This document shows positions 254 through 62,678 of a stretch of DNA of 64,000 nucleotides, piece by piece. Below the pieces are notes generated by a model. The model did not search any database. It was not told where the DNA came from and saw only the letters and a program-made list of their open reading frames with translations. This DNA is from a virus: positions 1-64,000 of IMG/VR virus record IMGVR_UViG_3300020034_000009; one strand, given 5' to 3'. The position numbers were made by a program, and so were the translations under genes. Numbering within the stretch: the first letter of the stretch is position 1; each line of letters begins with the position of its first letter.

Positions 254-3200
254 GTTCCTCCTAGCCTTGGTAGAAGTACTAAGCCCATATTCATTAGCTA
301 TCTCATTGGAAAACAGTCCCAAATAGGTAGTAATCTCCTTTGTAATAGGAAGAGCTTTAAAGAGGTATTTAGATGTTTTGGTTTTATTCTGACCGGCCTC
401 ATCTCCTATGATGGTATAGCCTAAATCTTTCATAGCATTAATAGCAAATTTTTCTAAGTCGATAATGGCTCCCAAGGCAGGGAATACACTACCATTAGCA
501 ATAGATGACATAGCCATAGGATTATAGAAGAAGGACAATTCATCTCTAGCCCTATCTGCTAAACGGAGGGCATATTTCCATGATCCCTTAGTAATAGCAT
601 CATCGTCATCAGGAGCAAATTGATGAAGTCCCCACATCATAGCCAATAAAGCCATAAATGTTAATACTTCCTGAATAGTTCCTGTGACAGCATCAACATA
701 CATATCCACAAATTGTGCCTCATTCATAAATTGATCAGGATTTTCCACACCAGCCTTCTTAACAATATACAGCTTTTTAGCTTTCTCAATAAGAGATTCC
801 TTGCCACTCATAATACCTATAAGACTTCCAGTACCAGCAGCAATGTTGTGAAGCAAACCATGGCTCATCATTCTATATCTTCCATATTCCCAATCATCTT
901 TACCCACCTCCCAACGAAGTTCACCAAATCTCTTATCAGCCATTCTAGGAATCCAGTTCTTAAACATCATAGCACTACTAGTGAGCACACTCATTCTATA
1001 TTGGTATATATCCTGAGGGTCCATATTACCCAATGCATCCTTGGTAAATTGCTCTATTCTAGTCTTAAAATCATATACTGTAGGAGAGAGTCTATCAATT
1101 CCCGGAATAACTAGCCTATCATTAACAACTGTAGTTGTCTTGATAAGGCTTCTGGTTTCTTGTAGCTCCTTAATTTCATCTTCAATTTTCTTATCTAATG
1201 CCTTTCTGTCAGCTATAGAGAGCTGATATTTATTACCGTAGTCATTTTTCTTCCTGACAAACTCTCTTATATTAACAAGTTCTCCATTCTCCACCATTGT
1301 ATTTCTGGTAAAGGCAATGAACACTGGAATCTGGACAAATCTTTCTGACTGTCTTTGGAACCAAAATAGGGCATCTGTACTTAGATTGGCTACTGCATTA
1401 TTAACACTTAAATCCCTGCCCTTAAAGACCTTCTCATCCTCAGTTAAAGGAAGGAAGTAATCAAGAAGTCCTGCAATATGCTTTCCCTCCTTATCACTAA
1501 ATTTACCACTCATCATTCTCAATTGTCCAAAGGCAATATCTCCAGCATCAATAAATTTTCCCGAGTTAATGAGAGTATTAGTAGTACCACCCAAAAAGTT
1601 AGTTAAAGCAGAAGGTAAGTTACCACCCAACACCTTCATCTGGAAGTAGCTACCAAATTTCTTAATAGTTTTAGAGGCACTAACATCTACAAAGTCTTCT
1701 TCAGGTTTAGGCAAAGGACGGAATCCTAATGTCTTTTCAAAAGCATCATTAATTTTTCCTACATATTTACCTACAGGAACCTTAGCACTGAAATCTCCCT
1801 TCTCTATATACTTATTATCATACAGAGAATAGTTCATAAAGTTCTCTAAATAAGGAGCATTACCACCACGCTCTCCAAGTTCCTCTTCTCCTCTTTTATT
1901 AATAGCCCTAATAACATCCTTACCTCTCTCTACTTCAAGAAGAAGCCTAGCTTCAGCCTCAATATCATTACGAAGCTTAAACTTAATCATTTCATCATTC
2001 CATAGATACATTACACTAAACAAGTCATCACTCTTATTAGTGAAGTCTACATATTTTTCATCCTTCTCATCCTTGCTATCCTTACCAAGACTATATACAT
2101 ACCTAGGTGTAATAGTACTAACAGGCTTACCAGTAATAGTATCAATAGAGTCACTATCTGGATGCATTGCAAAGGCAGCTAAGTATCCATAAGGAGTTTT
2201 ATCTCCCTTATTTTTTGTATCTCCATAGAGCATTTTATCCAGCAAACTCCTTCTGATATTAGGTACAAAGGAAGAATACCCTTTAGCTTCAATCATACCA
2301 AGTCTGGTAGATTCTTTCATTGTATCTCTCCAATATTGATAGAATTCAATAAGAGCTGGTTCCTTAGAGATTTCTTGATATTCCTTAGACTGCCATTTTT
2401 CTAATGGATATTTATAGAACTGGTCATTAGCTCTACTAAACGCACTAGGATTAGATATATCATAAGTCCTTTTAAATCTATCTACTCTCTTTTTAATTTC
2501 AGCTTTATTGTTCTCAGGATCAAGAGAATCATATATTTGGTCAGCTTGCCATTTAATAGTTTTTGCTTCTTCTTCTTTATACCACTCTTCATAAGCAGCT
2601 ATATCAATATTGTCTCTAATCCATTGAACATCATTATTCTTAGCAGCATCCTCTAATCCCTTATAGAATTTAGCATCATATCTACCAATAAGTTTACCCT
2701 TCCATCTTCCTTTAGAGTCTACAGCAAGTAATTTTTTAAGTACGTCCTTTGTACTTATATTAAGCTTTTTAGCTACTTTTTCTATGTTTTTCTTATGCTC
2801 TTCTAGAACAGCAGCTCTCTCACTTAGTTCAAGCTCAGACTGTTTAGATATTCTATTAACCATCTTATAAAACACCTGAGCAGGTTTAGTCATAGCCTGT
2901 GATAAGCTCCTGAAATTCCTTTGCAGAGACTTAACAAGCATCTCTGGCTTAAGCATATCTCTAATATTGTATCCATTACCTATAGCCTCAGCTGCCTCAG
3001 CAAGTAAACCATTCTTAACATCATCGGATACATCTCTAGCCTTTCTAGATACAGCCTCAATCTTAACCCTATCCTCATCAGAAACATCAAAGGCTTTGAA
3101 CTTACTATCTAAGTTCTCAAATATACTAAGGAAGTCCTTGTTTTCTAAGATTTTACCTGATATATCATTCAACTTAGCATTGGGATCATTCTCTAATTGA

Positions 3201-10900: not shown

Positions 10901-13900
10901 GAAGTAGCCTTATCCCTATCCAGTGTGTATTCTCCATTAATAGAGCCTACAGCTTCAGTTAAGTTGGCAAAAAGGAACTTAATAGATGCTGGAGCATTCT
11001 TCTTAATATCATATGCAAAATGGTCTCTTTCATATTCAGCACTACTCTTACCATCTGCCTTTTCTTCAGTAACGCCAATATTTTCAGTATCATCTATTTC
11101 ATCTGTATCCAGCTCATTCATTTTGGCTATAATACCATAAGTCCTAAGAGACTCTAAGGCATTCTCCTTAACTGAATCCCAGTTATTCTTAACATTTTCC
11201 CATACTGTAAGGTATTTTGCAAATTCCTCTGGAGAGATGTTGGGATTACGGAGAGGAAGTTGGACTTCATACCAATCTTGCATCTCATCATACACCATTG
11301 AGAACAGCTTACTAAAACCAACACCACCCTTTTCATCAAGTTCTACTAAGTGAGCAGAGCTACCATCCTTATTAATTTGACGTAAAAGGCTGACAGTTAC
11401 ATGTTTAGTAACAGTTTGTGCAATAGCAGACCTCCAATTAGGATCAATTCTATACTGTGGATCACCAATATTCTCATGGTTAATAGGAACAGCAGTCTTG
11501 TAATATCCACCATTGATCCTTCTAAACATGGCTTGCATAGGACTTCCTGTTTGAAATAATCCCTTAATGAAGTTAAGCAAGTCAGTAAACATTCTCTGAA
11601 GGAACCCCTTCTGAGGTTTCTCTGCCTTAATAACAAAGTCTCTGAATTCCTCAGCTATTTGTTCCTTAGCTTGTTGATCTGTAGAATTAGAGAAGGAAAG
11701 TGTAGCTCCAGTTTCTCTGTCCTTATAACTACCTTTTCTGGCCCTGAATTCTCCAAGGATATTATTCTTTTCCTTTAGGTCAGTAAACATAGACCATACA
11801 GCCTCAAATGCTTCATGATATGTAGTACCAGTTTCAGCATTCTCCCATATATAAACAGCAGCATTCTGGAACTTACCAAAAGCTAATCCAGCACCACCAG
11901 CATTAATAATATTCTTCACCCTCTTGAAAGGAATAGAGAAGTTCTTTTCAAACCATGATTGTTCCTGATCTAGGTTGGCTTGAATATAATCTCCGGGCTC
12001 TATAAAAAGTCTATAATCAGCATCCTTTTTAGCTACAGCTCCAGAGGCTTTTGCTTTAGCAATAAGTTCCTGAGCCTTAGTAAGTGTAGCAGCCTCTTGA
12101 ACAGGGGCAGTTACTACAGGTGTAGAAGGAGCTGGTGTAGATTCTTGTGCTGAAGGAGCTTGTTCTTGTTCAGACTTAATAATAGTAGCAGCAATATAAT
12201 CTCTGAGAAAAGCTTCAACAGCTTCGTCATCTGCTAGTCCCTGCTCCATATATGCTCCCACATTAGGATTAGCTAATAGACTGGCCTTAACAGCAGGACT
12301 TACTTCAGTACCAATAATATATCCCTGTGGTCCAAGTACAGCAGTAAATGGAACATCACCACCCTTAGTAGGAAGAATGTTCTGTGTAATACCATCAGTA
12401 ATATACTTAGTAGTAGCCTTCTTCTGTGTAGGAGTTTGAGTAGGTTCTTTCTTAACTGCTTCTTTCTTAGGAGCAGGAGGTGTTGATTCCTTTTTAGGCT
12501 CAAGCTTCTCTGGTTTAGGATAGAATTCTCCCACCAATGTAGCATATTTCTGCTCAAAGTTACTATCCAGAGGATCAACAGCAGTATTAATAGTTCTAAT
12601 AGATGTAGAGAGAGGAGCTTTTTCCCTTGCCTTTCCTTTTAATGGACTATCATCATCTTCTATTAAGTCATAAGTAGGAGACAACAAAAAATGCTGATAA
12701 GACTTCCATGTAATCATTACAGGTTCGCCATCCTTTACATCAATGATTTCATTGTAGGGCTTGTTATCCTTGAGTTTAGTATTATTAACATTATTGAATG
12801 AGCCCTTAAGCCATGCTACTACTTCAGGCTTAGCTCTGTCAAATCCACCTTCATAGAATGGAAAGGAGAAGTTTTTACCCAAATGCATTCTACCCTCTTG
12901 AATCCATATCTGATTTCTGCCTGCTTTGGCTGGAGATTCAGGTTGGCTGAAATAGAATACACCCTGTAAGAATCTGGTAAATCTCTTGTCAAGTGTTCCC
13001 TGTTTACCACTAGATACAAGTCCTCTAAGAGCTTTGTATAATGTATCTACCTCTTTGTCAGTAAATTGCCTATTATTGGCAAATTCTAATGTATCACCAT
13101 TCTGTATTACTACACTACCGGGAGGAAATGTAACACTGGTATCTTGATGATCAATTACACCAGTAGTAACTACCCTAACCAATCCCTGTTTGAATAAGTC
13201 AGATTGTTTGATTAATGCACCTACAATATTATTTTCTTCATAGACATTCTTCTTATCTACTTCCTTAATATTCTTCTTAGCAATACCTCTAGAGATATTA
13301 AATTCAAAGGCTTGGAATGTTCCATCTGTCCATGCAAGAATTTCAGCTCTCTTCTGTTTCCAAGCAGCCTGATGAGCAATAGCATCTTCAGGAGTTCCCT
13401 TACCATACCTAAGCTCTGTTGGCTTAGAGGGAATCATAAGAGAATCGGTAGGCATGGTGCTATAAGCAGCCTTATCAAGGATTGCCTGTGGATCAGTTTC
13501 AGTAATAGGATTACCCTCAGAGTCTATCCAAATAGGTTTACCATCTACTCCAGCTCTAGCATAAACAGTAGCAATAGTATTATCATCTCCACCCATTCTA
13601 GTTATAAGACCGGGGAGACCCATGGAAGCTTCAGTCTTTCTAGTTACAAGAACTACTCTAAGTTCTTCGGGATTCTTGAACCATTTAGCATTATTAAGCA
13701 GAAACTGCTCTCTAATATGATGAGGCTTATGATCCTTATCAGGAGAAGTATTGGAACGGAATAGTATTTCTATATCCTTAGCAGGAGGTCTAATATCTCT
13801 TACACCAGTTTCAGCAGCTGGATCACCAGACTCTGGTTCTAGTTCCTTTTGAGATTGAAAGAGTTTATCATGTATGGCCTTGTTAGCTTCAAATTCTGCC

Positions 13901-45103: not shown

Positions 45104-47212
45104 TTATGTGAATAGTTTTATCCTACCCTTTCTTTTATTGGAAGGTATTATTAATGTTGCACCACCCCCTACTATACTGAGGGATACTCCTGATTTGTAA
45201 TGTTTATATAATCCCGATATTCTAGGGTCTGTGGAAGAAGTAAGTTTCCCTATTTTTCCATCTAGTGCTTCTGCCATAGCAAATGCTAAGGAAGCAGCTA
45301 TCACCCTATCAAAGTTATCTACGTCATTGAATTTGATGATTTCCTCTAGGAGCATAGGATCAAATATTCTATTAACACCCAATACTTCTCCTGTTACAGA
45401 GCCATTCTCATCCTTCATCTGTAGAATCACTTCTTCCATATACCTCTTAACACAACCATTAAGCCAATCTCTCACCTTCTCACTACTTCTATGGACACCA
45501 AAATCCTTACTAACAGTTGTAGTAGGGACTATTTCACGTAGCCATGCTGGTTGAGGCTCTAGATAGTGAGTATCATTCTTCTTCTTCATGTACTCTATGA
45601 ATGAGATTTCATCATTCTCTACCAGAGTTCTGGCATTGTACATTTTTATTAATAGTCTAGCCTGTTCATTCCACTCATCCTTCTTCTTGGGTCTCCCAAC
45701 ATAAGAGGCTACAATCATGTTCTGATACTTCTCTCCTATAAGACTATGTTGCCTTTTGAGGATGTAGACAGCTCCCAAGGAGTCTGAACTCTTAGCATCT
45801 GCATCCCTGTAACTATCCACACCTGCTACATATAAGTTAGCTGGAGGATTTTCACTAGGCCACTCATATATCACTACTGGTGTATCTGTAGACTGATCCT
45901 TTACAGGAAATTGGGTAACAGGTAGCTTATCAGTAAACTCATGAGCAATTTTTTCTCCATCATGGAATAGTCTAACATAAGTACCAGTTTTACCTAGAGC
46001 TGTTAATTTCTTTAATTGCTGCTTAGCTAAGTCTGTATCAAAGATATTACCCTCAACCATTAAAAAGCTATCTGAAGGAACTAAAGGCCAATAGGCTTTA
46101 AACTTCAGAATAGTCTTACTGTTTCCAGAGGATTTAGCTTTAGCAAACTCAGGTTCCCACCATTCCTTAAGAGCCCTTTCCTCATTAGATACAAGGATGG
46201 TAATTTTCTCTAGGTCTGGATGATGTATGCCTAAGTAGTCTGCAAGGGTTTGTTTTTCCTTAAAAGCCATCTTAGCCATAGTAGCAGGAATAAACCTACC
46301 AATTTTTTTAGGAATCTCTTCCCATGTGTTATCAAAGGATAACATGTTATAACCATCTGGTGTGCAAAACACTTCAGCAGCTTCCTTACCCTTTTCCATG
46401 TCTCCACCAGTTCCAGTTACCATAACCAGACAGGAAGGCTTAGTACCTCCACCTGACCACCAGCAACCATCACTATCCTTAATACAACCAATGAGGTTAG
46501 GGATAGTCCCTTCCTCATCTATTAAGTGGAATCCCGGTCTAGTACCATTAGCAGCCATGGTATTAGTACCATCCTGATAATTACGCACTAGGATTCTAGA
46601 GTTAGAACTTTTAGGATGTGCTAGCCCTGAAGTTTTTTCCTTCCAGCCAGCCCTAATTTCCTTTTTCCAATCACTCATCAATCTCTTCTTCTGAAGCATT
46701 GGATGAATATTAGTAAGGCCATCCTCAATCTTATCAGTAGCCAGCTTAATATAAGTGGCAGCACCTCCAGATATGACAGACTCTGAGTTACTAAACAGAG
46801 TGTATTGCCAACCAGCTCTAGAGGCAGCAATGATAGATTTACCAAAGTCACGACTTCCCACTAGGTTGTAGAACTTGCCCTGATCATCACAGGCTACGAA
46901 GTCTCCTCCAATAGTCCATTCCAAGTCACGTAGAAAAGGAGTGGCTATTATTCTAGGTTTTCTCTTTGTCTTAGGGTCTTCTACATACATGGCAATTTTC
47001 CAATACACAGTATGCCAATAAAGCCATCCTGATATATGCACTCTGTCATCAGCTAGATAGAAGCCATTACGCATTCTATTTAGTTCTCGTTTCCAATAGT
47101 TATTAAACCTAACTACACCAGCCTCATCTGTAGGATCATAGACTGGTTCTTTTTGTTCTGGAAACCAGATGTTTACGGTTTGTTGGGTATAGTCGTTAGT
47201 TGATGCTATCAT
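45104..47212 (-). CDS. terL: Terminase large subunit
   Basis: About 702 aa from ATG 47212 (a TTG at 47218 is also in frame). ATPase: Walker A GSRDFGKS near residue 120 and Walker B LIDEE near residue 230. The C-terminal RNase H-like nuclease begins at VAGVDSYRDADAKSSDS, with the first catalytic Asp near residue 466. It cuts and translocates DNA into the procapsid via the portal encoded next. It overlaps the small upstream gene. Confidence 0.93.
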   Translation of the reverse strand: MIASTNDYTQQTVNIWFPEQKEPVYDPTDEAGVVRFNNYWKRELNRMRNGFYLADDRVHISGWLYWHTVYWKIAMYVEDPKTKRKPRIIATPFLRDLEWTIGGDFVACDDQGKFYNLVGSRDFGKSIIAASRAGWQYTLFSNSESVISGGAATYIKLATDKIEDGLTNIHPMLQKKRLMSDWKKEIRAGWKEKTSGLAHPKSSNSRILVRNYQDGTNTMAANGTRPGFHLIDEEGTIPNLIGCIKDSDGCWWSGGGTKPSCLVMVTGTGGDMEKGKEAAEVFCTPDGYNMLSFDNTWEEIPKKIGRFIPATMAKMAFKEKQTLADYLGIHHPDLEKITILVSNEERALKEWWEPEFAKAKSSGNSKTILKFKAYWPLVPSDSFLMVEGNIFDTDLAKQQLKKLTALGKTGTYVRLFHDGEKIAHEFTDKLPVTQFPVKDQSTDTPVVIYEWPSENPPANLYVAGVDSYRDADAKSSDSLGAVYILKRQHSLIGEKYQNMIVASYVGRPKKKDEWNEQARLLIKMYNARTLVENDEISFIEYMKKKNDTHYLEPQPAWLREIVPTTTVSKDFGVHRSSEKVRDWLNGCVKRYMEEVILQMKDENGSVTGEVLGVNRIFDPMLLEEIIKFNDVDNFDRVIAASLAFAMAEALDGKIGKLTSSTDPRISGLYKHYKSGVSLSIVGGGATLIIPSNKRKGRIKLFT

Positions 47213-54896: not shown

Positions 54897-54922
54897 GGGG
54901 AGGCTAACGCCTCTCCCTTTTT
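54897..54922 (+). terminator. Intrinsic terminator of the 122-aa gene
   Basis: GGGGAGGC, loop TAAC, GCCTCTCCC with one bulged T, then TTTTT. It begins seven bases after the stop codon. Confidence 0.85.
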
Positions 54923-54947
54923 CCATATATAGATAGTCAGCTTAAAC

Positions 54948-55072
54948 ACTATTAATACATAATATTGAATAGATTAAACAACTGATGTATTTCTTTAGAG
55001 GAATACTATATACAGTAGTCTAATATGGTTAACGCCCAATTAGGTGACTATTCTTTGTTATGTATTAATAGT
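54948..55072 (+). ncRNA. Structured RNA element A (15-bp closing stem)
   Basis: ACTATTAATACATAA (54948-54962) pairs perfectly with 55058-55072. Inside, GAATAG/CTATTC (54967-54972 with 55048-55053) continues the stem. Two hairpins branch from it: GTATTTC/GGAATAC (54987-55006, enclosed by ACTG/CAGT) and CTAAT/ATTAG (55020-55043). There is no open reading frame. Multi-branched fold, function unknown. Confidence 0.6.
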
Positions 55073-55222
55073 TTTATACATTTTCACCGGTAAAATACCG
55101 CCATTCACCGAGATTGTCCAAAAACACCGAGAAAACACTCCATTATATATAGTATATACATAGACATACATATATTCACTCTATAGACACCATATTTATT
55201 AACACTATTAACACTATTTATC

Positions 55223-55288
55223 ATGGATGAGAAAGAATTAGGCGATTTCCTTTGCATTTATACTGCAAATTGGGATAATAATGACTAA
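55223..55288 (+). CDS. 21-aa candidate peptide
   Basis: ATG (55223) to TAA: begins MDEKELGDFLCIYTANWDNN. It follows the A/T-rich AACACTATTAACACTATTTA leader that precedes most genes of this arm. Very short, so only moderately likely. Confidence 0.4.
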   Translation: MDEKELGDFLCIYTANWDNND

Positions 55289-55345
55289 AAAGAGTGTAAA
55301 TTGTTAATAGTGTACACATAACACACTATTCTCTTAATACTCTTT
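55289..55345 (+). ncRNA. Nested hairpin element
   Basis: Outer AAAGAGT/ACTCTTT (55289-55295 with 55339-55345) encloses an 8-bp hairpin AATAGTGT/ACACTATT (55306-55313 with 55323-55330). It directly follows the 21-aa frame. Confidence 0.4.
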
Positions 55346-55371
55346 ACGCTTAAAATAGTCCTAATACAACA

Positions 55372-55385
55372 TTAATATAGCATTA
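55372..55385. repeat. Dispersed 14-mer TTAATATAGCATTA, copy 4
   Basis: Exact copy on the plus strand, overlapping the 5' arm of RNA element B. The other copies are at 240, 42168 and 49498. Confidence 0.65.
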
Positions 55386-55501
55386 ATATACAATTCATTG
55401 GTTTATATCCTTCTAGAAGGTTATATTCTTAACCTATTGTCTCATAGAAGACAACTGAGAACAACTGGCTAAACAGTGGGGATGTATTGTATATTAATGT
55501 T
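55379..55501 (+). ncRNA. Structured RNA element B, four-way cloverleaf
   Basis: The closing stem (55379-55394 with 55486-55501) has 16 pairs, one of them G.U. Three hairpins lie inside: CCTTC/GAAGG with flanking ATA/TAT (55405-55424), TTGTCT/AGACAA with a 6-base loop (55437-55454), and ACTG/CAGT with a 6-base loop (55464-55477). The layout resembles a tRNA cloverleaf, but the acceptor stem is far too long and there is no T-loop consensus. Confidence 0.6.
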
Positions 55502-55521
55502 CTTTGTTTTAGAGAGCCAAT

Positions 55522-55604
55522 GACTATGGCTGTACACTATTTAGTGTAGATATAAGGATTTATTCCATAGTTCCTGATAATGCTAGCAAGAGGGTAAAGG
55601 CTAG
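55522..55604 (+). ncRNA. Further hairpins downstream of element B
   Basis: GACTATGG/CCATAGTT (55522-55529 with 55565-55572) encloses TACACT/AGTGTA (55533-55548). A second hairpin CTAGC/GCTAG lies at 55583-55604. With element B and the nested hairpin, about 320 bases here are nearly all paired and carry no long reading frame. Confidence 0.45.
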
Positions 55605-55663
55605 ATAGGTATCACTACTCTTTTTATTAATGTTCTTTTTATTCACTTATTAATACCAAAACT

Positions 55664-55852
55664 ATGTTAAATACTGCAAACCCAGTTAGTTCTTTAGAAA
55701 CTGTTACATATTCAAGTGGTTTAGATGAGAATGGTATAGTATATTATATTAATACTCCTGATGGGGAATTAACATTATATACTGAAGCATTTAGTCTATT
55801 CTGTTCTCTTATGGCTCAATTGGAGAAGAATTTAGTTCGTATTGATTATTAA
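55664..55852 (+). CDS. Small early protein, 62 aa, paralogue of 57602-57805
   Basis: Contains IVYYINTPDGELTLYTEAFS, which aligns with VYTIQTPGNPLELFSGEMVD in the protein at 57602, followed in both by a hydrophobic FxxLMAQL / FLLQSL helix. Duplicated small early genes are common in this arm. Function unknown. Confidence 0.65.
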   Translation: MLNTANPVSSLETVTYSSGLDENGIVYYINTPDGELTLYTEAFSLFCSLMAQLEKNLVRIDY

Positions 55853-55865
55853 CTCATTATTATAT

Positions 55866-55935
55866 GCCGGATTAGTTTTAATTGGTAGAACACCTAGTGC
55901 GCTAGGAGATGGGGGTTTGAATCCCCCATTTGGCT
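55866..55935 (+). tRNA. tRNA-like element with 4-base anticodon loop (possible degenerate tRNA)
   Basis: Acceptor GCCGGAT/ATTTGGC (7 pairs), D arm GTTT-TAATTGGTA-GAAC with the conserved GG, T arm GGGGG-TTTGAAT-CCCCC. The anticodon arm is CCTAG-TGCG-CTAGG, leaving a four-base loop, or six if the last pair opens. The whole is 70 bases with no encoded CCA. It cannot decode normally as drawn. Confidence 0.5.
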
Positions 55936-55936
55936 G

Positions 55937-56003
55937 CTTGAATAGTTATTAACGAGGCGTCAGTATACGCCTACAATGAGCTTAGTAGTTCAAGAGATTC
56001 AAG
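55937..56003 (+). ncRNA. Hairpin element following the tRNA-like sequence
   Basis: CTTGAAT (55937-55943) pairs with ATTCAAG (55997-56003). Inside is a perfect AGGCGT/ACGCCT hairpin (55955-55972). The 7-bp closing stem is acceptor-like, but no T arm follows. Confidence 0.4.
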
Positions 56004-56036
56004 ATACATATTATTAATACATTTAATTCAATTGTT

Positions 56037-56294
56037 ATGATATATAACTCAGCTCCAATGACAATGGATAAGTTATTCTCTCTTGGTAAGTGTAATTTAC
56101 GTGATATTATCTCTGCCGGAGAAGTGTGTTCTCTACTAGATGGAGATGATTACATGGCTCTTGGTTGGCTGAATGCGGGTATTAAGTTGCCTTCTTATCA
56201 GTTTGAAGAGTTGTATTCTAACCGGAGTGGCTCTTACTGTATTTATATCAATAAACAGTTCAGAGCCTACTATTGTGTAGATATGGGTGATTAA
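56037..56294 (+). CDS. Small early protein, 85 aa
   Basis: Contains NLRDIISAGEVCSLLDGDDY and a C-terminal GSYCIYINKQFRAYYCVDMG strand pair. Leader ATTAATACATTTAATTCAAT before the ATG. Function unknown. Confidence 0.65.
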   Translation: MIYNSAPMTMDKLFSLGKCNLRDIISAGEVCSLLDGDDYMALGWLNAGIKLPSYQFEELYSNRSGSYCIYINKQFRAYYCVDMGD

Positions 56295-56305
56295 CTCACT
56301 CTCTA

Positions 56306-56358
56306 GAGGATATAACATATAGATGTGTTATTTATAGGTTCGATTCCTATTATCCTCT
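56306..56358 (+). ncRNA. 53-nt minimal tRNA-like RNA (acceptor, one hairpin, T arm)
   Basis: GAGGATA pairs with TATCCTC (56306-56312 with 56351-56357). The T arm is ATAGG-TTCGATT-CCTAT (56334-56350), with a canonical TTCRANY loop. Only one hairpin, TAACA/TGTTA with an 8-base loop, replaces both D and anticodon arms. It begins 12 bases after a stop codon. Confidence 0.55.
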
Positions 56359-56387
56359 CATTTATTAACTCACTAAACTGTTATTAT

Positions 56388-56477
56388 ATGACTCATTACT
56401 TAACATATGTATATACATGCTCTGTAAATGGTGTAATTCCATGTTCTATAGAGAGGTGGAGAATACAGTTTGGATAA
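56388..56477 (+). CDS. 29-aa candidate peptide
   Basis: Begins MTHYLTYVYTCSVNGVIPCS and ends WRIQFG, then TAA. The leader TTATTAACTCACTAAACTG before the ATG is like those of longer genes here. Its stop codon lies inside the first stem of the pseudoknot. Confidence 0.45.
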   Translation: MTHYLTYVYTCSVNGVIPCSIERWRIQFG

Positions 56478-56530
56478 CTAGTAGATGTAAAATACTAAGC
56501 AATAATGTGGTGAGTTATCCCTCGTATTGC
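56472..56530 (+). ncRNA. Candidate H-type pseudoknot
   Basis: Stem 1: GGATAACT/AGTTATCC (56472-56479 with 56513-56520). Stem 2: GCAATA (56499-56504, in the loop of stem 1) with TATTGC (56525-56530). A small AGTA/TACT hairpin lies inside the first loop. All pairs are Watson-Crick. Confidence 0.5.
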
Positions 56531-56546
56531 CCATGTTTTCTATTAT

Positions 56547-56665
56547 TAAGCGTTAGTATACAATAGTTTGGATGTGTTAAGCATGTCATAACCTCTATCG
56601 GCAGATAAGAGTAGGTGTCAATCATGCCCATTCTAAATACTAGTTCTATTGTGTACTAATGCTTA
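56547..56665 (+). ncRNA. Structured RNA element D (20-bp closing stem)
   Basis: 56547-56566 pairs with 56646-56665 over 20 positions, two of them wobbles. Inside, GCATG/CATGC (56581-56585 with 56623-56627) encloses ACCT/AGGT and TATC-GGCA-GATA. It fills the 225-base gap between the 29-aa frame and the gene at 56703. Confidence 0.6.
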
Positions 56666-56702
56666 TTTATTACATTGATTATTAACCTTTTATACATATT
56701 AT

Positions 56703-56927
56703 ATGATACTCAAAGCTGGTCAATCATTTACCTTTTATACTAATGAGTTTGTTGAAAAACTCAATACTCTTGAGCCTATAGAGAGGGTTAAACTTCTGCT
56801 TACTGCTGCTGAAGAAGAAATTAGTGATTATAGAAGCGAAGTAGGTATAGGCTATTCAGCTGATATGATCTACAATAAAGCTCATGGTCTTATTTCTGAA
56901 GCTCTATCTACACTTGGAAGAGACTAA
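56703..56927 (+). CDS. Small helical early protein, 74 aa
   Basis: Glu/Leu-rich helices (VEKLNTLEPIERVKLLLTAA, then EEEISDYRSEVGIGY). Unknown function; clear ATG after the A/T leader. Confidence 0.65.
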   Translation: MILKAGQSFTFYTNEFVEKLNTLEPIERVKLLLTAAEEEISDYRSEVGIGYSADMIYNKAHGLISEALSTLGRD

Positions 56928-56951
56928 TTATTAACCATTTAACTATATATT

Positions 56952-57167
56952 ATGCTTAAAGTATATTGTATTCACCATAATGAATATGGATTTTGTACTC
57001 TTGATGACTATAATGATAGTAAATCAGGGGCTAATCCCTCTGGAATGCTTAGAGTAGAGTTTAATACATTCACTCAGGCTGTTCCACTTAATACTATTAC
57101 TCTTGTTGATGATGAGGAGCCAACTGAAGCTGATTACTGGAGTGGTGAGGCTGAGTATCCACAATAG
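56952..57167 (+). CDS. Small early protein, 71 aa, ends in TAG
   Basis: Starts MLKVYCIHHNEYGFCTLDDY, beta-rich with an acidic C-terminus (VDDEEPTEADYW). It stops at TAG; reading through would add two residues before TAA. Function unknown. Confidence 0.65.
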   Translation: MLKVYCIHHNEYGFCTLDDYNDSKSGANPSGMLRVEFNTFTQAVPLNTITLVDDEEPTEADYWSGEAEYPQ

Positions 57168-57216
57168 AATTAAGGGGGTGGAATTCCCCTATTATTCATT
57201 AATAAAACTAATACAA

Positions 57217-57459
57217 ATGAAGAAAGTAATAATAAATAAGCCTAAAGCAGACTCTATATATTTAGAAGATGTTTCATTACTCAATCAGATTCTAACATTT
57301 AATAGTAATAGTGGCAGTTGGGGTATTATATTTGAAAAAGGCAATGGTTGCCCTAAATACCGGATTAAATGGACTGATGGTAGTGAATGTATGAGTGAAT
57401 ATGATAGTATTAAAGAATTAATGATTGATATGCCTTCTGTAGACTATTATGTACTATAA
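57217..57459 (+). CDS. Small early protein, 80 aa, paralogue of 57912-58151
   Basis: Start set at ATG 57217 (MKKVIINKPKADSIYLEDVS); the open frame extends further upstream but into the preceding gene. GSWGIIFEKGNGCPKYRIKW and EYDSIKELM match GNWGYVIYNKASWRIFWL and SSLHELID in the protein at 57912. Function unknown. Confidence 0.7.
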   Translation: MKKVIINKPKADSIYLEDVSLLNQILTFNSNSGSWGIIFEKGNGCPKYRIKWTDGSECMSEYDSIKELMIDMPSVDYYVL

Positions 57460-57470
57460 ATTAATATGTT

Positions 57471-57596
57471 ATGAACAACTTACTATTAACACTAAATGAG
57501 CCATTTTGGGTATATGGACATATTGTACCAACTAAATACAATGTATTCCCTGCTCCTATAATGAGAATTGATAATATTCCTTATAATCTAAACTAA
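57471..57596 (+). CDS. 41-aa protein
   Basis: ATG to TAA, begins MNNLLLTLNEPFWVYGHIVP. It occupies the entire gap between the genes at 57217 and 57602, so it is likely real despite its size. Unknown function. Confidence 0.55.
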   Translation: MNNLLLTLNEPFWVYGHIVPTKYNVFPAPIMRIDNIPYNLN

Positions 57597-57601
57597 TTGT
57601 T

Positions 57602-57805
57602 ATGTTTAAAGACAGCTCTTTAGAGCCCTTACTCAAGCCTGTTAATCCTATAGTATATTATTCTGTAGAATTTGAAGGACTTGAAACTCCTGTTTATACT
57701 ATTCAGACACCGGGAAATCCATTAGAACTATTCTCTGGAGAAATGGTAGATTTAATATTCCTTCTACAGTCTCTTGGTATAAAAGTGGAGAGAAAACAAG
57801 ATTAA
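57602..57805 (+). CDS. Small early protein, 67 aa, paralogue of 55664-55852
   Basis: VYTIQTPGNPLELFSGEMVD and a following hydrophobic helix match the gene at 55664. Acidic/basic tail (KVERKQD). Unknown function. Confidence 0.65.
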   Translation: MFKDSSLEPLLKPVNPIVYYSVEFEGLETPVYTIQTPGNPLELFSGEMVDLIFLLQSLGIKVERKQD

Positions 57806-57825
57806 TCACTATTAATACTACTATT

Positions 57826-57909
57826 ATGTTAACAACATTCATTGTTGGAGGTGTATTATTCATATACCTCAATGGTAAACTTATTGATAAACAGCTTATT
57901 AAACTATAA
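57826..57909 (+). CDS. 27-aa single-pass membrane peptide
   Basis: Begins MLTTFIVGGVLFIYLNGKLI: a hydrophobic segment followed by a basic C-terminus (DKQLIKL). It fills the gap before the next gene, with the usual TATTAATACTACTATT leader. Confidence 0.5.
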   Translation: MLTTFIVGGVLFIYLNGKLIDKQLIKL

Positions 57910-57911
57910 AA

Positions 57912-58151
57912 ATGAGAAAAATCGTAATTAAAAATGAAATTACTATCTCTCTCCTAGAGGTAGATATTAAAAAACCTATTCTTGTTCAGACTTATCAAGG
58001 AAATTGGGGATATGTAATATATAATAAAGCTTCATGGAGAATATTCTGGTTGACAACTAATATATTCGGTTCTTTTAGTGTATCCTCATTACATGAGCTA
58101 ATTGATTACTATTCCAAAGAAAGCTATACATTTTATAGTGATATAATCTAA
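57912..58151 (+). CDS. Small early protein, 79 aa, paralogue of 57217-57459
   Basis: GNWGYVIYNKASWRIFWLTT and SSLHELIDYYSKE match the 80-aa protein. It begins two bases after the membrane peptide. Beta-rich; unknown function. Confidence 0.65.
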   Translation: MRKIVIKNEITISLLEVDIKKPILVQTYQGNWGYVIYNKASWRIFWLTTNIFGSFSVSSLHELIDYYSKESYTFYSDII

Positions 58152-58158
58152 ATCATTC

Positions 58159-58262
58159 TATTCTCAGTATCTAGTTGTAATATGTCTACAAAGGCTCTTA
58201 GCGGAGTACTTGTATCGTGACCTGATTCGTACTCAGGATATTATAACTGGATACTGAGGATA
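58159..58262 (+). ncRNA. Structured RNA element E (25-bp stem enclosing a T-arm-like hairpin)
   Basis: 58159-58183 pairs with 58238-58262 over 25 positions with only G.U exceptions. Inside, CCTGA-TTCGTAC-TCAGG (58221-58237) abuts the 3' arm just as a T arm abuts an acceptor stem. The remaining part is a second hairpin (TACAA/TTGTA, then GCTC/GAGT with loop TTAGCG). The plan is 'acceptor, one arm, T arm', as in the element at 56306. Confidence 0.65.
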
Positions 58263-58293
58263 TTTATTAACTAATCTATTAAATATATTTAAA

Positions 58294-58521
58294 ATGAAAG
58301 CAACAATAACAGAAAATCTATCTAAATTTAAGCCATTTACTCTCTCACTTACTGTAGAGGCAGAGGATGAAGAGAATGCATTGTATGCTATTGGTAATGT
58401 AAATTATAAAAGACTTATGGAGCTATTAATAGAATGTACTGCATTTGGAGTAAGACCTAGAAGTGAGGCTGCTTTAAGTGAAGTAACAGGTATTATATAT
58501 AGAGCTATAAAGAATCGTTAA
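58294..58521 (+). CDS. Small early protein, 75 aa
   Basis: Begins MKATITENLSKFKPFTLSLT, with an acidic helix (VEAEDEENALYAIGNVNYKR) and a basic end. Unknown function. Confidence 0.65.
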   Translation: MKATITENLSKFKPFTLSLTVEAEDEENALYAIGNVNYKRLMELLIECTAFGVRPRSEAALSEVTGIIYRAIKNR

Positions 58522-58540
58522 CATATTAAAACTAATTACT

Positions 58541-58684
58541 ATATTTTATCCAGAACATCCAACTAATGATCCAAATTTTACATTTGTCTCAGTAATAGGG
58601 CTTATGCTTATTACTGTTATTGGTGTATTATGGATTGGTTATGAATTACTTAAATCTTATTGTTTTAAACAAAATACCGATTAA
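58541..58684 (+). CDS. 47-aa membrane protein with apparent ATA start
   Basis: The open frame has no ATG before its transmembrane segment (VIGLMLITVIGVLWIGYELL). The spacing after the TTAAAACTAATTACT leader points to ATA at 58541 as the start, where neighbours have ATG. Either a rare ATA start or a mutated start. Confidence 0.45.
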   Translation: MFYPEHPTNDPNFTFVSVIGLMLITVIGVLWIGYELLKSYCFKQNTD

Positions 58685-58685
58685 T

Positions 58686-58979
58686 ATGCTACTAGAAATG
58701 ATGATGTGTCCTCTCATTTTAGAAATGAAGGACCAAGAAGGTGATTTGACTGAAAAAGAGGCTGATAACCTTGCAACTGAAGTGGTTGCTAATGATCCTG
58801 CGGCTACAATAGATAATTTTAGGGATGCTGCTGCCATGATTAGAAGTAATGTAGAACAAGCTATTATATTTTTTGAATATAATGAGGAAGAAACTAAATT
58901 TATTAGGCAGTTCTTTAATAGAATGGCTGCATTAGTACTTCAAAAAGCAATGGATAGAAATAAAACACAACTAAACTAA
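58686..58979 (+). CDS. Helical early protein, 97 aa
   Basis: Start chosen at ATG 58686, one base after the previous stop. Met-rich start (MLLEMMMCPLILEMKDQEGD), then acidic and hydrophobic helices ending in MDRNKTQLN. Unknown function. Confidence 0.65.
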   Translation: MLLEMMMCPLILEMKDQEGDLTEKEADNLATEVVANDPAATIDNFRDAAAMIRSNVEQAIIFFEYNEEETKFIRQFFNRMAALVLQKAMDRNKTQLN

Positions 58980-58984
58980 ATTTT

Positions 58985-59455
58985 ATGACATACAACGAAG
59001 CTTATAATAGAATTATAACAGCTTATTTTAAGGATGAAGTGAAACCATTTGAACCATGTGCTTGCTTTATTGGCAATTTGCTTGGTGGTAAAGATATATG
59101 GGCAAATGCTAGAACAAAAGACCCTTTCTTAAATATGTTTGTACCGGCTAAATATGAAATAGGTTTCTATGGTTCTAAAGATTCAATTGATAAAGGTTTA
59201 AAATATATTAAAGACCTTTCTAATGATGTATTAACAATAGAAGATATATGTAGAATAGAAAATGTTTTTATGAAGATTATTTGGGGACATACTTCAAAAT
59301 CTAATATAGGCTATTTTAATGATGGTTGTGATCAGGAAGAACAGTTATTTGAAGCTATGTCAGCTGGATTAGATATGCTTAAGACTATATATGAAGAGAA
59401 AGGATTACCTACAGAATCTATTGTATTTAATAAAAGAGAATTAGTTAACGCTTAA
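58985..59455 (+). CDS. Early protein of unknown function, 156 aa
   Basis: Contains EPCACFIGNLLGGKDIWANA near residue 25 and EEQLFEAMSAGLDMLKTIYE near residue 118, phrases typical of small proteins shared by crAss-like phages. Mixed helix and strand; no catalytic motif. One of the larger early products. Confidence 0.7.
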   Translation: MTYNEAYNRIITAYFKDEVKPFEPCACFIGNLLGGKDIWANARTKDPFLNMFVPAKYEIGFYGSKDSIDKGLKYIKDLSNDVLTIEDICRIENVFMKIIWGHTSKSNIGYFNDGCDQEEQLFEAMSAGLDMLKTIYEEKGLPTESIVFNKRELVNA

Positions 59456-59464
59456 ATTATTTTT

Positions 59465-59641
59465 ATGCTTAAATATTCTGAACTCTATGATTATCTACTT
59501 TCTACTGCTAAAGTAGGAAAAGGTATAGCAGTAATTGGTGATTATGCATATATTACCGAATATTCTAGAGCCTATCTTATTGCTGTAGAAATAGGTAATC
59601 TAGGCTATGTATTTCGTATTAAATCACTAAAAACCAAATAG
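59465..59641 (+). CDS. 58-aa early protein, ends in TAG
   Basis: Begins MLKYSELYDYLLSTAKVGKG, then beta strands (IAVIGDYAYITEYSRAYLIA). It stops at TAG two bases before the next start. Unknown function. Confidence 0.6.
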   Translation: MLKYSELYDYLLSTAKVGKGIAVIGDYAYITEYSRAYLIAVEIGNLGYVFRIKSLKTK

Positions 59642-59643
59642 TT

Positions 59644-59802
59644 ATGATACTTATTCATGATTTTATATGTATATTAGGAATAGTATGCTTTTTGACCTCA
59701 GGATTAACAGCTATTACTACTCCTTATAGACAGTATTCTAGTAGTTTTTATAAAACTGGACTAGGTATTGCTTGTTTTATTTACCTCTCTCAACAATTAT
59801 AA
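59644..59802 (+). CDS. 52-aa membrane protein
   Basis: Two hydrophobic segments (FICILGIVCFLTSGLTAI and GLGIACFIYLSQQL) joined by a polar loop with TTPYRQYSSSF. Probably two-pass inner-membrane protein. Confidence 0.6.
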   Translation: MILIHDFICILGIVCFLTSGLTAITTPYRQYSSSFYKTGLGIACFIYLSQQL

Positions 59803-59803
59803 T

Positions 59804-59995
59804 ATGGAAAGACTATATAATTTTATATTAGCTCTAATAGTAATATTATTTATATTCATTCTTATGCTTAATAATGAGATAGTTAATAATGAAAATAGGC
59901 TTAAAACTCTAGGGGAGGAGAAACGATTAATAATTGTCCCTCCCCTAGATACTTCTGTTAATGCTGTTAGATTTATTTATAAACCAAAACAATAA
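59804..59995 (+). CDS. 63-aa single-pass membrane protein
   Basis: Start set at ATG 59804, one base after the previous stop. N-terminal transmembrane segment (FILALIVILFIFILML) followed by a coiled Asn/Glu/Lys tail. Could be a signal-anchored spanin- or holin-like accessory protein, but nothing specific supports this. Confidence 0.6.
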   Translation: MERLYNFILALIVILFIFILMLNNEIVNNENRLKTLGEEKRLIIVPPLDTSVNAVRFIYKPKQ

Positions 59996-59999
59996 TTCT

Positions 60000-60254
60000 A
60001 TGGAAAAGGATAAATTTGATTATTTAATGGATATTATTGAGGAGAATATTAATTCTAAATCTGTGCTTGGTACTATTGAAGTAAGGCCAACTGGTTTACT
60101 CCTTTTGATGCTACAAGCTAAAATTGCTTATGAGAAGGATCATCCAGAGATATATTGTCAACACCTCTATCCTGTACATTCTTATTCTGAGGCCATAAGA
60201 GGTCTTGTAAAATGTACTAAATGCGAATTACCTTACACTGTTAAAGGATTATAA
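60000..60254 (+). CDS. 84-aa early protein with C-terminal Cys/His cluster
   Basis: Start at ATG 60000. N-terminal acidic helix (KDKFDYLMDIIEENINSK), then IEVRPTGLLLLMLQAK and a C-terminal C-x-H...H...C-T-K-C arrangement that may bind zinc. Unknown function. Confidence 0.6.
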   Translation: MEKDKFDYLMDIIEENINSKSVLGTIEVRPTGLLLLMLQAKIAYEKDHPEIYCQHLYPVHSYSEAIRGLVKCTKCELPYTVKGL

Positions 60255-60256
60255 TT

Positions 60257-60484
60257 ATGGATAGTAAACAAATAGCTGATATAGTACATGCAAAACTTGG
60301 TACATTTCCTAATGTATGGATAGAAAGAAAGGTTGTTAAAGAAACCCTAACTGAAATATTCGACAATATTAACAGTGAAATGCCATTTTCAGAGGATTAT
60401 TTCCATAAAGATACATATGAGAAGCATAAATATGCTTGGGATAAACAAATTACATTATTGAATAATATTATTAACTCTCTTTAA
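60257..60484 (+). CDS. 75-aa early protein
   Basis: Polar helical protein (DSKQIADIVHAKLGTFPNVW, then EKHKYAWDKQITLLNNIINS). Two bases after the preceding stop. Unknown function. Confidence 0.65.
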   Translation: MDSKQIADIVHAKLGTFPNVWIERKVVKETLTEIFDNINSEMPFSEDYFHKDTYEKHKYAWDKQITLLNNIINSL

Positions 60485-60493
60485 ACTATTAAC

Positions 60494-60745
60494 ATGGAAC
60501 TATATTTTATGGTAGATGTAAGTAAGGGATATGATTTAGAAAAAGCCATTGAATTCATTAGTGCTGAGGATGAGGTAGCATATTCCCATATAGTACATAA
60601 AGTGGAAGATGATTTTGTTACATATAAGCTATATACAGATGCTGATGAATTGGATATTCCCGGTGTTAGTGTAACTGTCATGGCTGGTCTAATAGGTTTT
60701 AGGCTAGGATGTGTATTTGCTGCACAATTAATTAAAAATCGTTAA
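60494..60745 (+). CDS. 83-aa early protein with hydrophobic C-terminus
   Basis: Acidic/beta N-terminal part (VDVSKGYDLEKAIEFISAED) and a C-terminal hydrophobic helix (VMAGLIGFRLGCVFAAQLI). Preceded by the exact leader TTAAACTATTAAC. Unknown function. Confidence 0.65.
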   Translation: MELYFMVDVSKGYDLEKAIEFISAEDEVAYSHIVHKVEDDFVTYKLYTDADELDIPGVSVTVMAGLIGFRLGCVFAAQLIKNR

Positions 60746-60757
60746 ACTATTAACAAA

Positions 60758-61042
60758 ATGAAAGTAGTAATTGAACAAAAGCATACTGTTAATGCTAGAT
60801 ATATAGATAATCGAGATTGTCCTCTATTTAGAGCTATTAAAGAACAACATCCAGAATTTCCTCTTAAGTCTGTAGCTGGTACATGGATAAGAGATACAGA
60901 AAATAATCTCTATGCTTTTAATAATGCAAATTGGAACAGCGAGGTAATGAAAGATTTAAGGGAGGGCATTGTTAATCCTATAGAAATAGAGATTGAGAAT
61001 GATCCATTTAAAACTCCAGTAGTAACCTTTTCTGAATTTTAA
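60758..61042 (+). CDS. 94-aa early protein
   Basis: Begins MKVVIEQKHTVNARYIDNRD, later CPLFRAIKEQHPEFPLKSVA and an acidic C-terminal strand region. Leader GTTAAACTATTAACAAA. Unknown function. Confidence 0.65.
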   Translation: MKVVIEQKHTVNARYIDNRDCPLFRAIKEQHPEFPLKSVAGTWIRDTENNLYAFNNANWNSEVMKDLREGIVNPIEIEIENDPFKTPVVTFSEF

Positions 61043-61068
61043 TTAATTACAACTAAACTATTAACAAA

Positions 61069-61452
61069 ATGGATAAGTATGATGAACAAATAGCTTATTT
61101 AACTAATAATCCTAACCAGATTAATAAATTATGGGATAAGGCAGAAGGACTATTTAAAATATTAGGCAAAAATTCAAATTTAAGAAGAGCAGGTTGTCTC
61201 ACCATGATAAAACCTGATGAAAATAGGGCTGTTCCATATTATCCTTTAGATGAAAAGGGAAATATATTGGTAGAGCTTAATAAGGAAATTATAAACGATT
61301 CCGGTATTCCTAATGATCCTTTTCTTATTACTATTGAAAAATTGCCAAAATTTGCCTACTATCAACGTAAATATGATGCATTAGTAGCTGAAACTACCCA
61401 TAATGCTATAGATGATAATGATTTTCATCCTGATAGAGATTGTTATAACTAA
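61069..61452 (+). CDS. 127-aa early protein
   Basis: Begins MDKYDEQIAYLTNNPNQINK; helical first half, beta second half with Pro and Asp. Leader CTAAACTATTAACAAA just before the ATG. Unknown function. Confidence 0.65.
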   Translation: MDKYDEQIAYLTNNPNQINKLWDKAEGLFKILGKNSNLRRAGCLTMIKPDENRAVPYYPLDEKGNILVELNKEIINDSGIPNDPFLITIEKLPKFAYYQRKYDALVAETTHNAIDDNDFHPDRDCYN

Positions 61453-61466
61453 AAAAACTTAAAATT

Positions 61467-61673
61467 ATGCCTATTTATCCCACTTTTAATGAAGGTCCAG
61501 CTACAGCTGCTTTTTATATTTCATTACTATTAATGATAGTATTTGGAATTTTAACGGGCTATTTTATGGTTAAATTAGAGGAGAAAACTAAGAATGGTTG
61601 GTATATAACAGGAGCTATATTATCTGGTATTCTTTTTGGAATTTCTACTATTTCTGGACTTTTAAACTCTTAA
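61467..61673 (+). CDS. 68-aa two-pass membrane protein
   Basis: Two transmembrane segments (AAFYISLLLMIVFGILTGYF and ITGAILSGILFGISTISGLL) with a KLEEKTKNGW loop. Holin-like size and topology but no further evidence. Confidence 0.65.
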   Translation: MPIYPTFNEGPATAAFYISLLLMIVFGILTGYFMVKLEEKTKNGWYITGAILSGILFGISTISGLLNS

Positions 61674-61684
61674 AAATTAAATAT

Positions 61685-62125
61685 ATGTATACAGTAGATT
61701 ATTTTATTGATTTTTTCTCTTCAATTCCTGAGCAGAATTTTAGAGTTTGTCCATCAGATGGAGAATATAACCCTACATTAGGATGTGCTTTACAGCATTT
61801 AAATAGGAACGAAGACCCCTTAGAAATTTACTCATCTACTAAGAGTATGGCTTTAGCTAAATTATTAATGGTACTTCCTGCAAATAATTTTAATGGTGAA
61901 CTTAGTGGTGTTTCTAGAGCATGGCTATTAAATGACGATGATAAGCCACAAGAAGCTGATACCTCTTATGGCAGAAAGAAATCTACTTGTAGAAGTAGAA
62001 TGTTGGCTGCACTACAGGATGTGAAGAAAATGCAGCAGGAACAGAGAATTAATGAAGGAAACAATATTCTTAATTCATTTAACCCTCCTATAGGTCAGGA
62101 ATTACCAGTTAAACAGCTGGTTTAA
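61685..62125 (+). CDS. 146-aa early protein, same family as 62827-63108
   Basis: Start set at ATG 61685; the open frame upstream overlaps the membrane gene. The pattern IPEQNFRVCPSDG...GCALQHLNRNEDP and the C-terminal SRMLAALQDVKK match IEKEKWIVGTDG...FCAVLHLIRNKHE and ARVMALLNDLL of the 93-aa protein. A 'KW..G....CALGHL' family is common in Bacteroidetes phages; function unknown. Confidence 0.65.
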   Translation: MYTVDYFIDFFSSIPEQNFRVCPSDGEYNPTLGCALQHLNRNEDPLEIYSSTKSMALAKLLMVLPANNFNGELSGVSRAWLLNDDDKPQEADTSYGRKKSTCRSRMLAALQDVKKMQQEQRINEGNNILNSFNPPIGQELPVKQLV

Positions 62126-62135
62126 TAATATTCTC

Positions 62136-62234
62136 TCTTCTATAGATAGTGTAATAGTGTAAACCAGTGACTAATATACCTGAGCTGCGTTACTTAATGG
62201 GACTGCTCCCTGCTATTATACTATCTATAGAGGA
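62136..62234 (+). ncRNA. Structured RNA element F (22-bp closing stem)
   Basis: 62136-62157 pairs with 62213-62234 over 22 positions, two of them G.U. Inside are GGGA-CTGC-TCCC (62199-62210) and a weak GTAA/TTAC stem. It ends seven bases before the tRNA-like sequence at 62242. Confidence 0.65.
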
Positions 62235-62241
62235 TATTTAA

Positions 62242-62325
62242 GGGGAAGTGGTGGAACTGAGTATACACCTCTGGCATGACTTTCTGTAAGGCCAACAATT
62301 GCAGGTTTGAATCCTGTCTTCCCTA
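62242..62325 (+). tRNA. tRNA-like element with abnormal anticodon arm
   Basis: Acceptor GGGGAAG/CTTCCCT, a GTGGAACTGAGTATACAC D-arm region like that of tRNA-Leu, and T arm GCAGG-TTTGAAT-CCTGT. The anticodon region pairs only as TGGC/GCCA with a four-base bulge and CTT/AAG around TCTGT, so the anticodon is unclear. 84 bases; no CCA encoded. Could be a degenerate tRNA. Confidence 0.5.
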
Positions 62326-62354
62326 CTATTTATTAACTAATTAAAACTATTAAT

Positions 62355-62678
62355 ATGTTCGGAAAAAAGAAAGAGCAGCCTAAAGAGGGTGTTTTATTTA
62401 CTGTCTCTGGAGTAGATTTGTATATATCGGACCTTAAATCTAACAATTTAAATGGTAAAAGAGTTATATATCAAGGAGTTGAGTTTAAAATTGAGATGGA
62501 AACTACTACTCTTTATGCTCATTTTAGGGTTAATGGAGAGTTAACAAGTCATTCTGTTCGTTTTGAAGATAGATATGATCTAAAAACATTTGCTCCTACA
62601 GCTCTAAAGGCTATTAACTCTTACTTGAGCAAAAAAGCTATAGAAAAACAATTCAAAAATTGGGATGGTAAATTATAA
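62355..62678 (+). CDS. 107-aa early protein
   Basis: Begins MFGKKKEQPKEGVLFTVSGV, beta-rich middle (VYQGVEFKI-like strands), basic C-terminal helix (LSKKAIEKQFKNWDGKL). Leader AATTAAAACTATTAAT before the ATG. Unknown function. Confidence 0.65.
   Translation: MFGKKKEQPKEGVLFTVSGVDLYISDLKSNNLNGKRVIYQGVEFKIEMETTTLYAHFRVNGELTSHSVRFEDRYDLKTFAPTALKAINSYLSKKAIEKQFKNWDGKL

Follow-up and report, generated by a model that had tools for sequence, protein, structure and literature searches.

Long closing stems in the gaps of a phage early arm and their possible role in punctuating the early transcript

The early arm and its long closing stems

The window, by which we mean the whole stretch of DNA that was analysed, comprises bases 1-64000 of the 71,435-base virus record IMGVR_UViG_3300020034_000009, and the subject of this study is a set of five long-stem elements (A, B, D, E and F) near its right-hand end, together with three sequences that resemble transfer RNA (tRNA). 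Late genes run leftward as far as ~54.3 kilobases (kb), and small early genes run rightward from 54.5 kb until the record ends; this right-hand arm is called early on the model of crAss-like phages. The record probably does not contain all of it, because related records reach 126 kb. Phage families were matched by the terminase and the major capsid protein of the record. The capsid proteins of the closest records found show ~60% identity to that of the window phage, and that of Leptolyngbya phage Lbo-JY46, the sole cultured relative found, shows 25.5% identity.

All ungapped helices of the whole record with an inner distance of at least 30 nucleotides (nt) and an outer distance of at most 260 nt were scanned. 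The top five helices of the early arm, and of the whole record, are exactly the closing stems of A (score 40.5), B (36.0), D (42.0), E (50.5) and F (47.0), and the sixth-ranked helix of the arm scores 29. All five elements lie on the plus strand. Element A (54948-55072) is closed by a stem of 25 positions (22 Watson-Crick pairs, one G.U pair and two mismatches) around a core of 75 nt, and element B (55379-55501) by one of 20-21 positions (18 Watson-Crick pairs, one or two G.U pairs and one mismatch) around a core of 83 nt. The remaining stems are free of mismatches: that of element D (56547-56665) has 20 pairs (18 Watson-Crick and two G.U) and a core of 79 nt, that of element E (58159-58262) 25 pairs (22 Watson-Crick and three G.U) and a core of 54 nt, and that of element F (62136-62234) 22-24 pairs (20 Watson-Crick and two to four G.U) and a core of 55 nt. 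Element E starts ~8 nt past the stop codon of the gene at 57912-58151; element F starts ~11 nt past the stop codon of the gene ending at 62125 and ends 7 nt ahead of the tRNA-like sequence t3 described below.

The five stems are real. Helices scoring at least 36 number five in the early arm, against 0.13 expected from 60 dinucleotide shuffles, and the same scan finds none in the late arm, which is threefold longer. Folded whole with RNAfold, the elements give z scores of -5.8 (A), -4.4 (B), -5.1 (D), -6.5 (E) and -7.1 (F), and for each of them none of 300 shuffles is equally stable. All five sit in gaps, with no open reading frame (ORF) of the window covering any of them. The first-pass annotation, made from the sequence alone, had placed five long-stem elements without a long reading frame at these positions and had called for comparison with shuffled sequence; the ranks, the z scores and the shuffles bear it out.

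Since a scan that rewards G.U pairs is biased, a second helix scan was made in which G.U and A.C were penalised alike. The same five stems lead under this wobble-neutral scoring, with 100 Watson-Crick pairs, nine G.U, no A.C and three other mismatches, and four stems are found where 0.02 are expected. A G.U pair on one strand is an A.C on the other, and the asymmetry of 9:0 across the five stems (P = 0.002) therefore suggests that it is as RNA from the transcribed strand that the arms pair. The earlier observation that wobbles stand in place of mismatches thus survives neutral detection. Selection for RNA pairing on the transcribed strand, which had been proposed from it, is supported by the excess of stems, the wobble asymmetry, the location in gaps and the strand of the transcript.

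A sixth candidate, element C (56373-56474), was rejected as chance (z -0.56). Between A and B there is a perfect stem of 12 base pairs (bp) at 55202-55313, weaker than those of A-F, which encloses a short ORF (~55223-55287); as a whole it has a z score of -3.15, with a core at chance level. A canonical hairpin resembling an intrinsic terminator lies at 54897-54916 on the plus strand, after the first early gene and upstream of element A, and is not a long stem.

Cores of the elements and the tRNA-like sequences

Without the closing stem, the cores give RNAfold z scores of -1.24 (A), -0.37 (B), -0.56 (D), -0.47 (E) and -0.80 (F), which is no better than shuffled sequence. Inner hairpins are therefore not evidence, and the one to three further hairpins seen inside each element by the first-pass annotation are not upheld by cores whose z scores range from -0.4 to -1.2. 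No sequence or motif common to the five elements was found beyond chance, the best motif matches between the cores and the gaps of related phages are at chance level, as is the complementarity of the cores to the phage genome, and the stem arms recur nowhere else in the genome. The arms of B and D are identical at 14 of 16 positions, and the differing positions preserve pairing; the likeness has P 0.0115 against dinucleotide shuffles and P 0.19 against random intergenic 22-mers of the same genome arm, and common descent of these two stems is unproven. What A-F share is architecture only. To that extent the description of them as a family stands; as homologous members, or as a new small RNA family in that sense, they are not supported, given their unrelated sequences and chance-level cores.

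Nor do the elements fall into a known class. A search of positions 54900-62400 with 4227 Rfam families left A-F unmatched at E <= 3. None of them has the form of an intrinsic terminator (a short GC-rich hairpin plus a T run) in a terminator scan, and neither a TAnnTTTG promoter box nor any other recognisable promoter context was found ahead of them.

The three tRNA-like sequences, also on the plus strand, were judged against the Rfam tRNA family RF00005, whose threshold (gathering score) is 29 bits. The first, t1 (55866-55937), has acceptor, D and T arms and an anticodon hairpin with a 4-nt loop, and scores 44.1 bits at 55866-55935. The second, t2 (56306-56358), measures 53 nt and has only the acceptor arm, the T arm and one other arm (33.3 bits), and t3 (62242-62325) is Leu/Ser-like with an oversized anticodon hairpin (31.3 bits). 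Their earlier recognition as tRNA-like is confirmed by these scores, though ARAGORN calls no tRNA gene among them. They exceed the Rfam threshold, yet their anticodon arms are aberrant or missing: the decoding-competent form, with a 5-bp anticodon stem and a 7-nt loop, is found in none of the three.

Noncoding RNAs in the early arms of related phages

Stem-closed elements of unrelated sequence occur in two related phages. G005 has three in the gaps behind its first early gene (z -4.9, -5.0 and -3.4), and G001 has two at the start of its early arm (z -5.8 and -5.1); these were selected out of scans, and taken over all the arms of the relatives, long stems are mildly in excess. An orthologous long-stem RNA is shared by G001 (59506-59366) and G006 (72232-72338), with conserved internal primary motifs and a closing stem of 15 pairs in which, counted by eye, a single pair has changes in both partners, two have a change in one partner, and one is broken. 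A few isolated long stems, but no comparable cluster, were found in the first 49 kb of phi14:2 and of crAss001 and in Lbo-JY46. A 29-position stem in G026 was set aside as a comparable element because it encloses an ORF. The inverted repeat at 45939-46192 of that phage (L080 10940-11193) has 25 Watson-Crick and two G.U pairs among its 29 positions, with one arm inside an 88-codon ORF and the other just behind it, and the G026 early arm also carries a group I intron (L081 5768-5983; Rfam RF00028, 91.9 bits).

Both G001 and G006 contain a 58-nt tRNA-like sequence that keeps the acceptor, D and T arms and lacks the anticodon arm (L012 12961-13018, minus strand, and L021 3196-3253, plus strand). 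The first acceptor pair is T-A in one and A-T in the other, a compensatory swap, and both sequences end 2 nt upstream of the ATG of an ORF of 668-670 codons. A second pair of 95 nt in the same phages has a rearranged anticodon region. G001 and G006 together have 18 tRNAs or tRNA-like sequences that precede an ORF, and for 8 of them the ATG of that ORF lies 0-4 nt past the 3' end, compared with 2.8% of random positions; this count includes orthologous pairs, and the independent cases number about five. Because the ATGs abut the tRNA ends, tRNA 3' maturation would free the 5' ends of messages in these phages. In the large tRNA clusters of both (L014 4810-5983; L019, minus strand) several tRNAs end exactly where a small ORF begins with its ATG, which suggests leaderless messages after tRNA 3' processing.

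Tandem RNA units lie downstream of a gene for a DUF7788/DUF2828 protein in G006 (L047 5800-6664), G001 (L048 5199-6087) and Lbo-JY46 (L037 6920-7290), and further arrays are found at L049, L050, L051, L052, L054, L056, L057, L058 and L064. A unit consists of a 7-8 bp stem arm, ACAGCAAA, a variable payload, the second arm, and TGATAAG or TGTTAAG. In motif-tail pairs picked blind to complementarity, all seven arm positions are paired in 24 of 44, as against 1.1% for mismatched arms; 21 different arms occur, and the arms differ in nearly every unit. Rfam matches the arrays to Dictyostelium Class I RNA (RF01414) with 39.7 bits (E 1.5e-5), just below the threshold of 41.5, and to YrlA (RF02553) with 31.9 bits (E 1e-4), far below its threshold of 69. 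Class I RNAs are reported to be apparently confined to dictyostelids (PMC7919456). Neither these nor Y RNAs were found at positions 54900-62400 of the window at E <= 3.

The DUF7788/DUF2828 protein is encoded on 24 viral contigs; the family has no match in the record that holds the window, itself probably incomplete. The layout of the protein, helical plus vWA with DTSGSM as a motif of its latter half, may be akin to that of Ro60, which would suit Y-like RNAs. It gave no sequence match in PDB, and the AlphaFold model of a relative's protein is too poor to use. The ACAGCAAA motif also occurs in the first codons of the gene at about half of the examined loci, where the start reads ATG TTT GAC/AAC AGC AAA (~3001-3015 in L047, L048, L049, L050, L054, L057, L061 and L070, and ~31-45 in L059), with the variant ATG TTA AAC AGC AAA in L070. 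Judged from this likeness, autoregulation is possible, in which the start of the messenger RNA would mimic the ACAGCAAA of the RNA units.

Some payloads are permuted tRNA-like modules with the 3' half ahead of the 5' half (L020 12898-13320 in G006; L013 1980-2210, minus strand, in G001), one closed by a GAAA tetraloop and others lengthened by a stem of 19-20 positions; other payloads look like single anticodon stem-loops. An interpretation of the arrays as permuted-tRNA decoys was dropped in favour of YrlA and Class I RNA, whose Rfam matches account for them better. A payload with AATGGCCCTAAGGT(A/T)G (L020 ~13505-13680 in G006; L013 ~2180-2320, minus strand, in G001) may resemble the segment of 23S ribosomal RNA (rRNA) around ACGGTCCTAAGGTAGCG. 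We judge these genes and their RNA arrays to be more surprising than the long stems.

Proposed punctuation of the early transcript and the alternatives

The reading that we favour, tentatively, is that the early transcript is punctuated by double-stranded signals of the ribonuclease (RNase) III type and by tRNA-type signals. The early arm would be transcribed as one long unit, with the elements standing in its untranslated gaps as stalks of 20-25 bp. Each stalk would be bound and cut by the host RNase III or a similar double-strand-specific enzyme, so that blocks of small early genes are parted and the loop between the arms is released or discarded. The tRNA-like sequences may be equivalent marks for RNase P and RNase Z, the nucleases that process tRNA ends, and the phage would benefit from the cutting. 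Only the closing stem is non-random, which fits recognition of a double strand and not of a structured core. The position of all five in gaps, the wobble asymmetry, the lack of terminator form and of promoter boxes, and the similar stems of G005 and G001 also speak for this reading.

In bacterial 16S and 23S rRNA precursors, long complementary arms join the ends of a large loop and act as RNase III sites. Elements A-F are like these processing stalks in outline only, since the rRNA precursors enclose large cores with extensive structure and those of A-F are chance-level sequences of 54-83 nt. The early R sites of phage T7 likewise lie between the genes of an early polycistronic RNA and give a double-stranded signal. 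RNase III targets occur in T7, lambda and rRNA precursors, where the T7 RNA is cut and the rRNAs are released (PMC5371410; for the T7 early RNAs, Dunn & Studier 1973 as cited there). With the minimum target taken as ~22 nt (PMC5371410), stems of 20-25 positions reach the required size (~22 bp or more), those of B and D, counted without gaps, being slightly short (20-21). T4 species 1 and 2 RNAs (rnaC and rnaD) are also phage noncoding RNAs of 119-139 nt beside tRNAs, and rnaC has a tRNA-like T arm at its end; they were rejected as an instance of the same plan, neither fold having a closing stem of 20-25 bp. Of the three roles offered by the first-pass annotation, namely processing sites, decoys for tRNA-targeting defences and a new small RNA family, the processing sites fit best, in view of the non-random stems of RNase III size, the position of E and F after stop codons and the tRNA-like sequences of the relatives.

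Several points weigh against this punctuation. RNase III frequently destabilises messages, and hence cutting need not help. No homologue of elements A-F or of the neighbouring genes, from which covariation could be read, was found in INPHARED phages, IMG/VR or seven capsid relatives. The T7 R sites, folded here from the early gaps, are compact bulged hairpins that resemble one another; A-F have longer uninterrupted stems and large unrelated loops and are not of the T7 type. Some blocks between elements are long (3.8 kb from E to F), and there is no code of one site to one gene. The next ATG lies 29, 58 and 99 nt beyond the tRNA-like sequences of the window, abutting ATGs being found only in the relatives. 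Strand-biased mutation could be a partial cause of the wobble asymmetry.

The main rival, which is possible though less probable than punctuation, is that each element is a separate stable noncoding RNA (a small RNA or decoy), with a stem that joins its ends and a loop that acts on some target in the host or the phage. The RNA-level selection seen in the wobble asymmetry would suit such RNAs, tRNA-like sequences occupy the same gaps, and the relatives' early arms do hold conserved noncoding RNAs, namely the long-stem RNA of G001 and G006 and the tRNA-like sequences deficient in the anticodon arm. However, the cores are at chance level in structure, have no common motif and match the complement of the phage genome no better than chance, and no promoter signal was found. 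Decoys for anticodon-targeting defences are disfavoured because the tRNA-like sequences are without a normal anticodon arm, being aberrant or deficient in t1-t3 and having lost it in the relatives' 58-nt pair.

The start of E and F a few nt past stop codons, and the high stability of the elements, would also be expected of uncut structural barriers that shield the 3' ends of upstream messages from exonucleases or stand in the way of ribosomes or polymerase between genes. We consider this distinctly unlikely, as A, B and D do not immediately follow a stop codon, the open loops of 54-83 nt are unusually large, and GC-rich compact hairpins are absent. Inverted repeats also form as DNA, as the 29-position repeat around an ORF in G026 illustrates, and the stems might be recombination remnants or the ends of replication or mobile elements that merely resemble RNA stems. 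Against such an origin, G.U exceeds A.C by 9:0 on the transcribed strand, and the five sequences are unrelated rather than copies of one element, with arms absent elsewhere in the genome; it is very improbable. Chance stems in AT-rich noncoding sequence are hardly credible and are refuted at the stem level: TATTAA-like repeats in the AT-rich gaps do ease pairing, and the likeness of the B and D arms is no greater than among random intergenic 22-mers, but five stems are seen where 0.13 are expected, and four against 0.02 under wobble-neutral scoring.

A broader version of the punctuation reading, which we regard as unlikely but worth stating, is that this phage clade marks its early transcript with long stalks and anticodon-defective tRNA mimics, at which host RNases free single messages, structure being selected while the sequences turn over completely. 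Most noncoding RNA in the early arms of these phages lacks annotation, as the Class I-like / Y-like arrays of the relatives show. If the stems are cutting sites, crAss-like relatives would, like T7, organise their early transcript by means of host RNase III, but by a different design that is independent of sequence, and the tRNA mimics would represent a mode of tRNA punctuation outside organelles.

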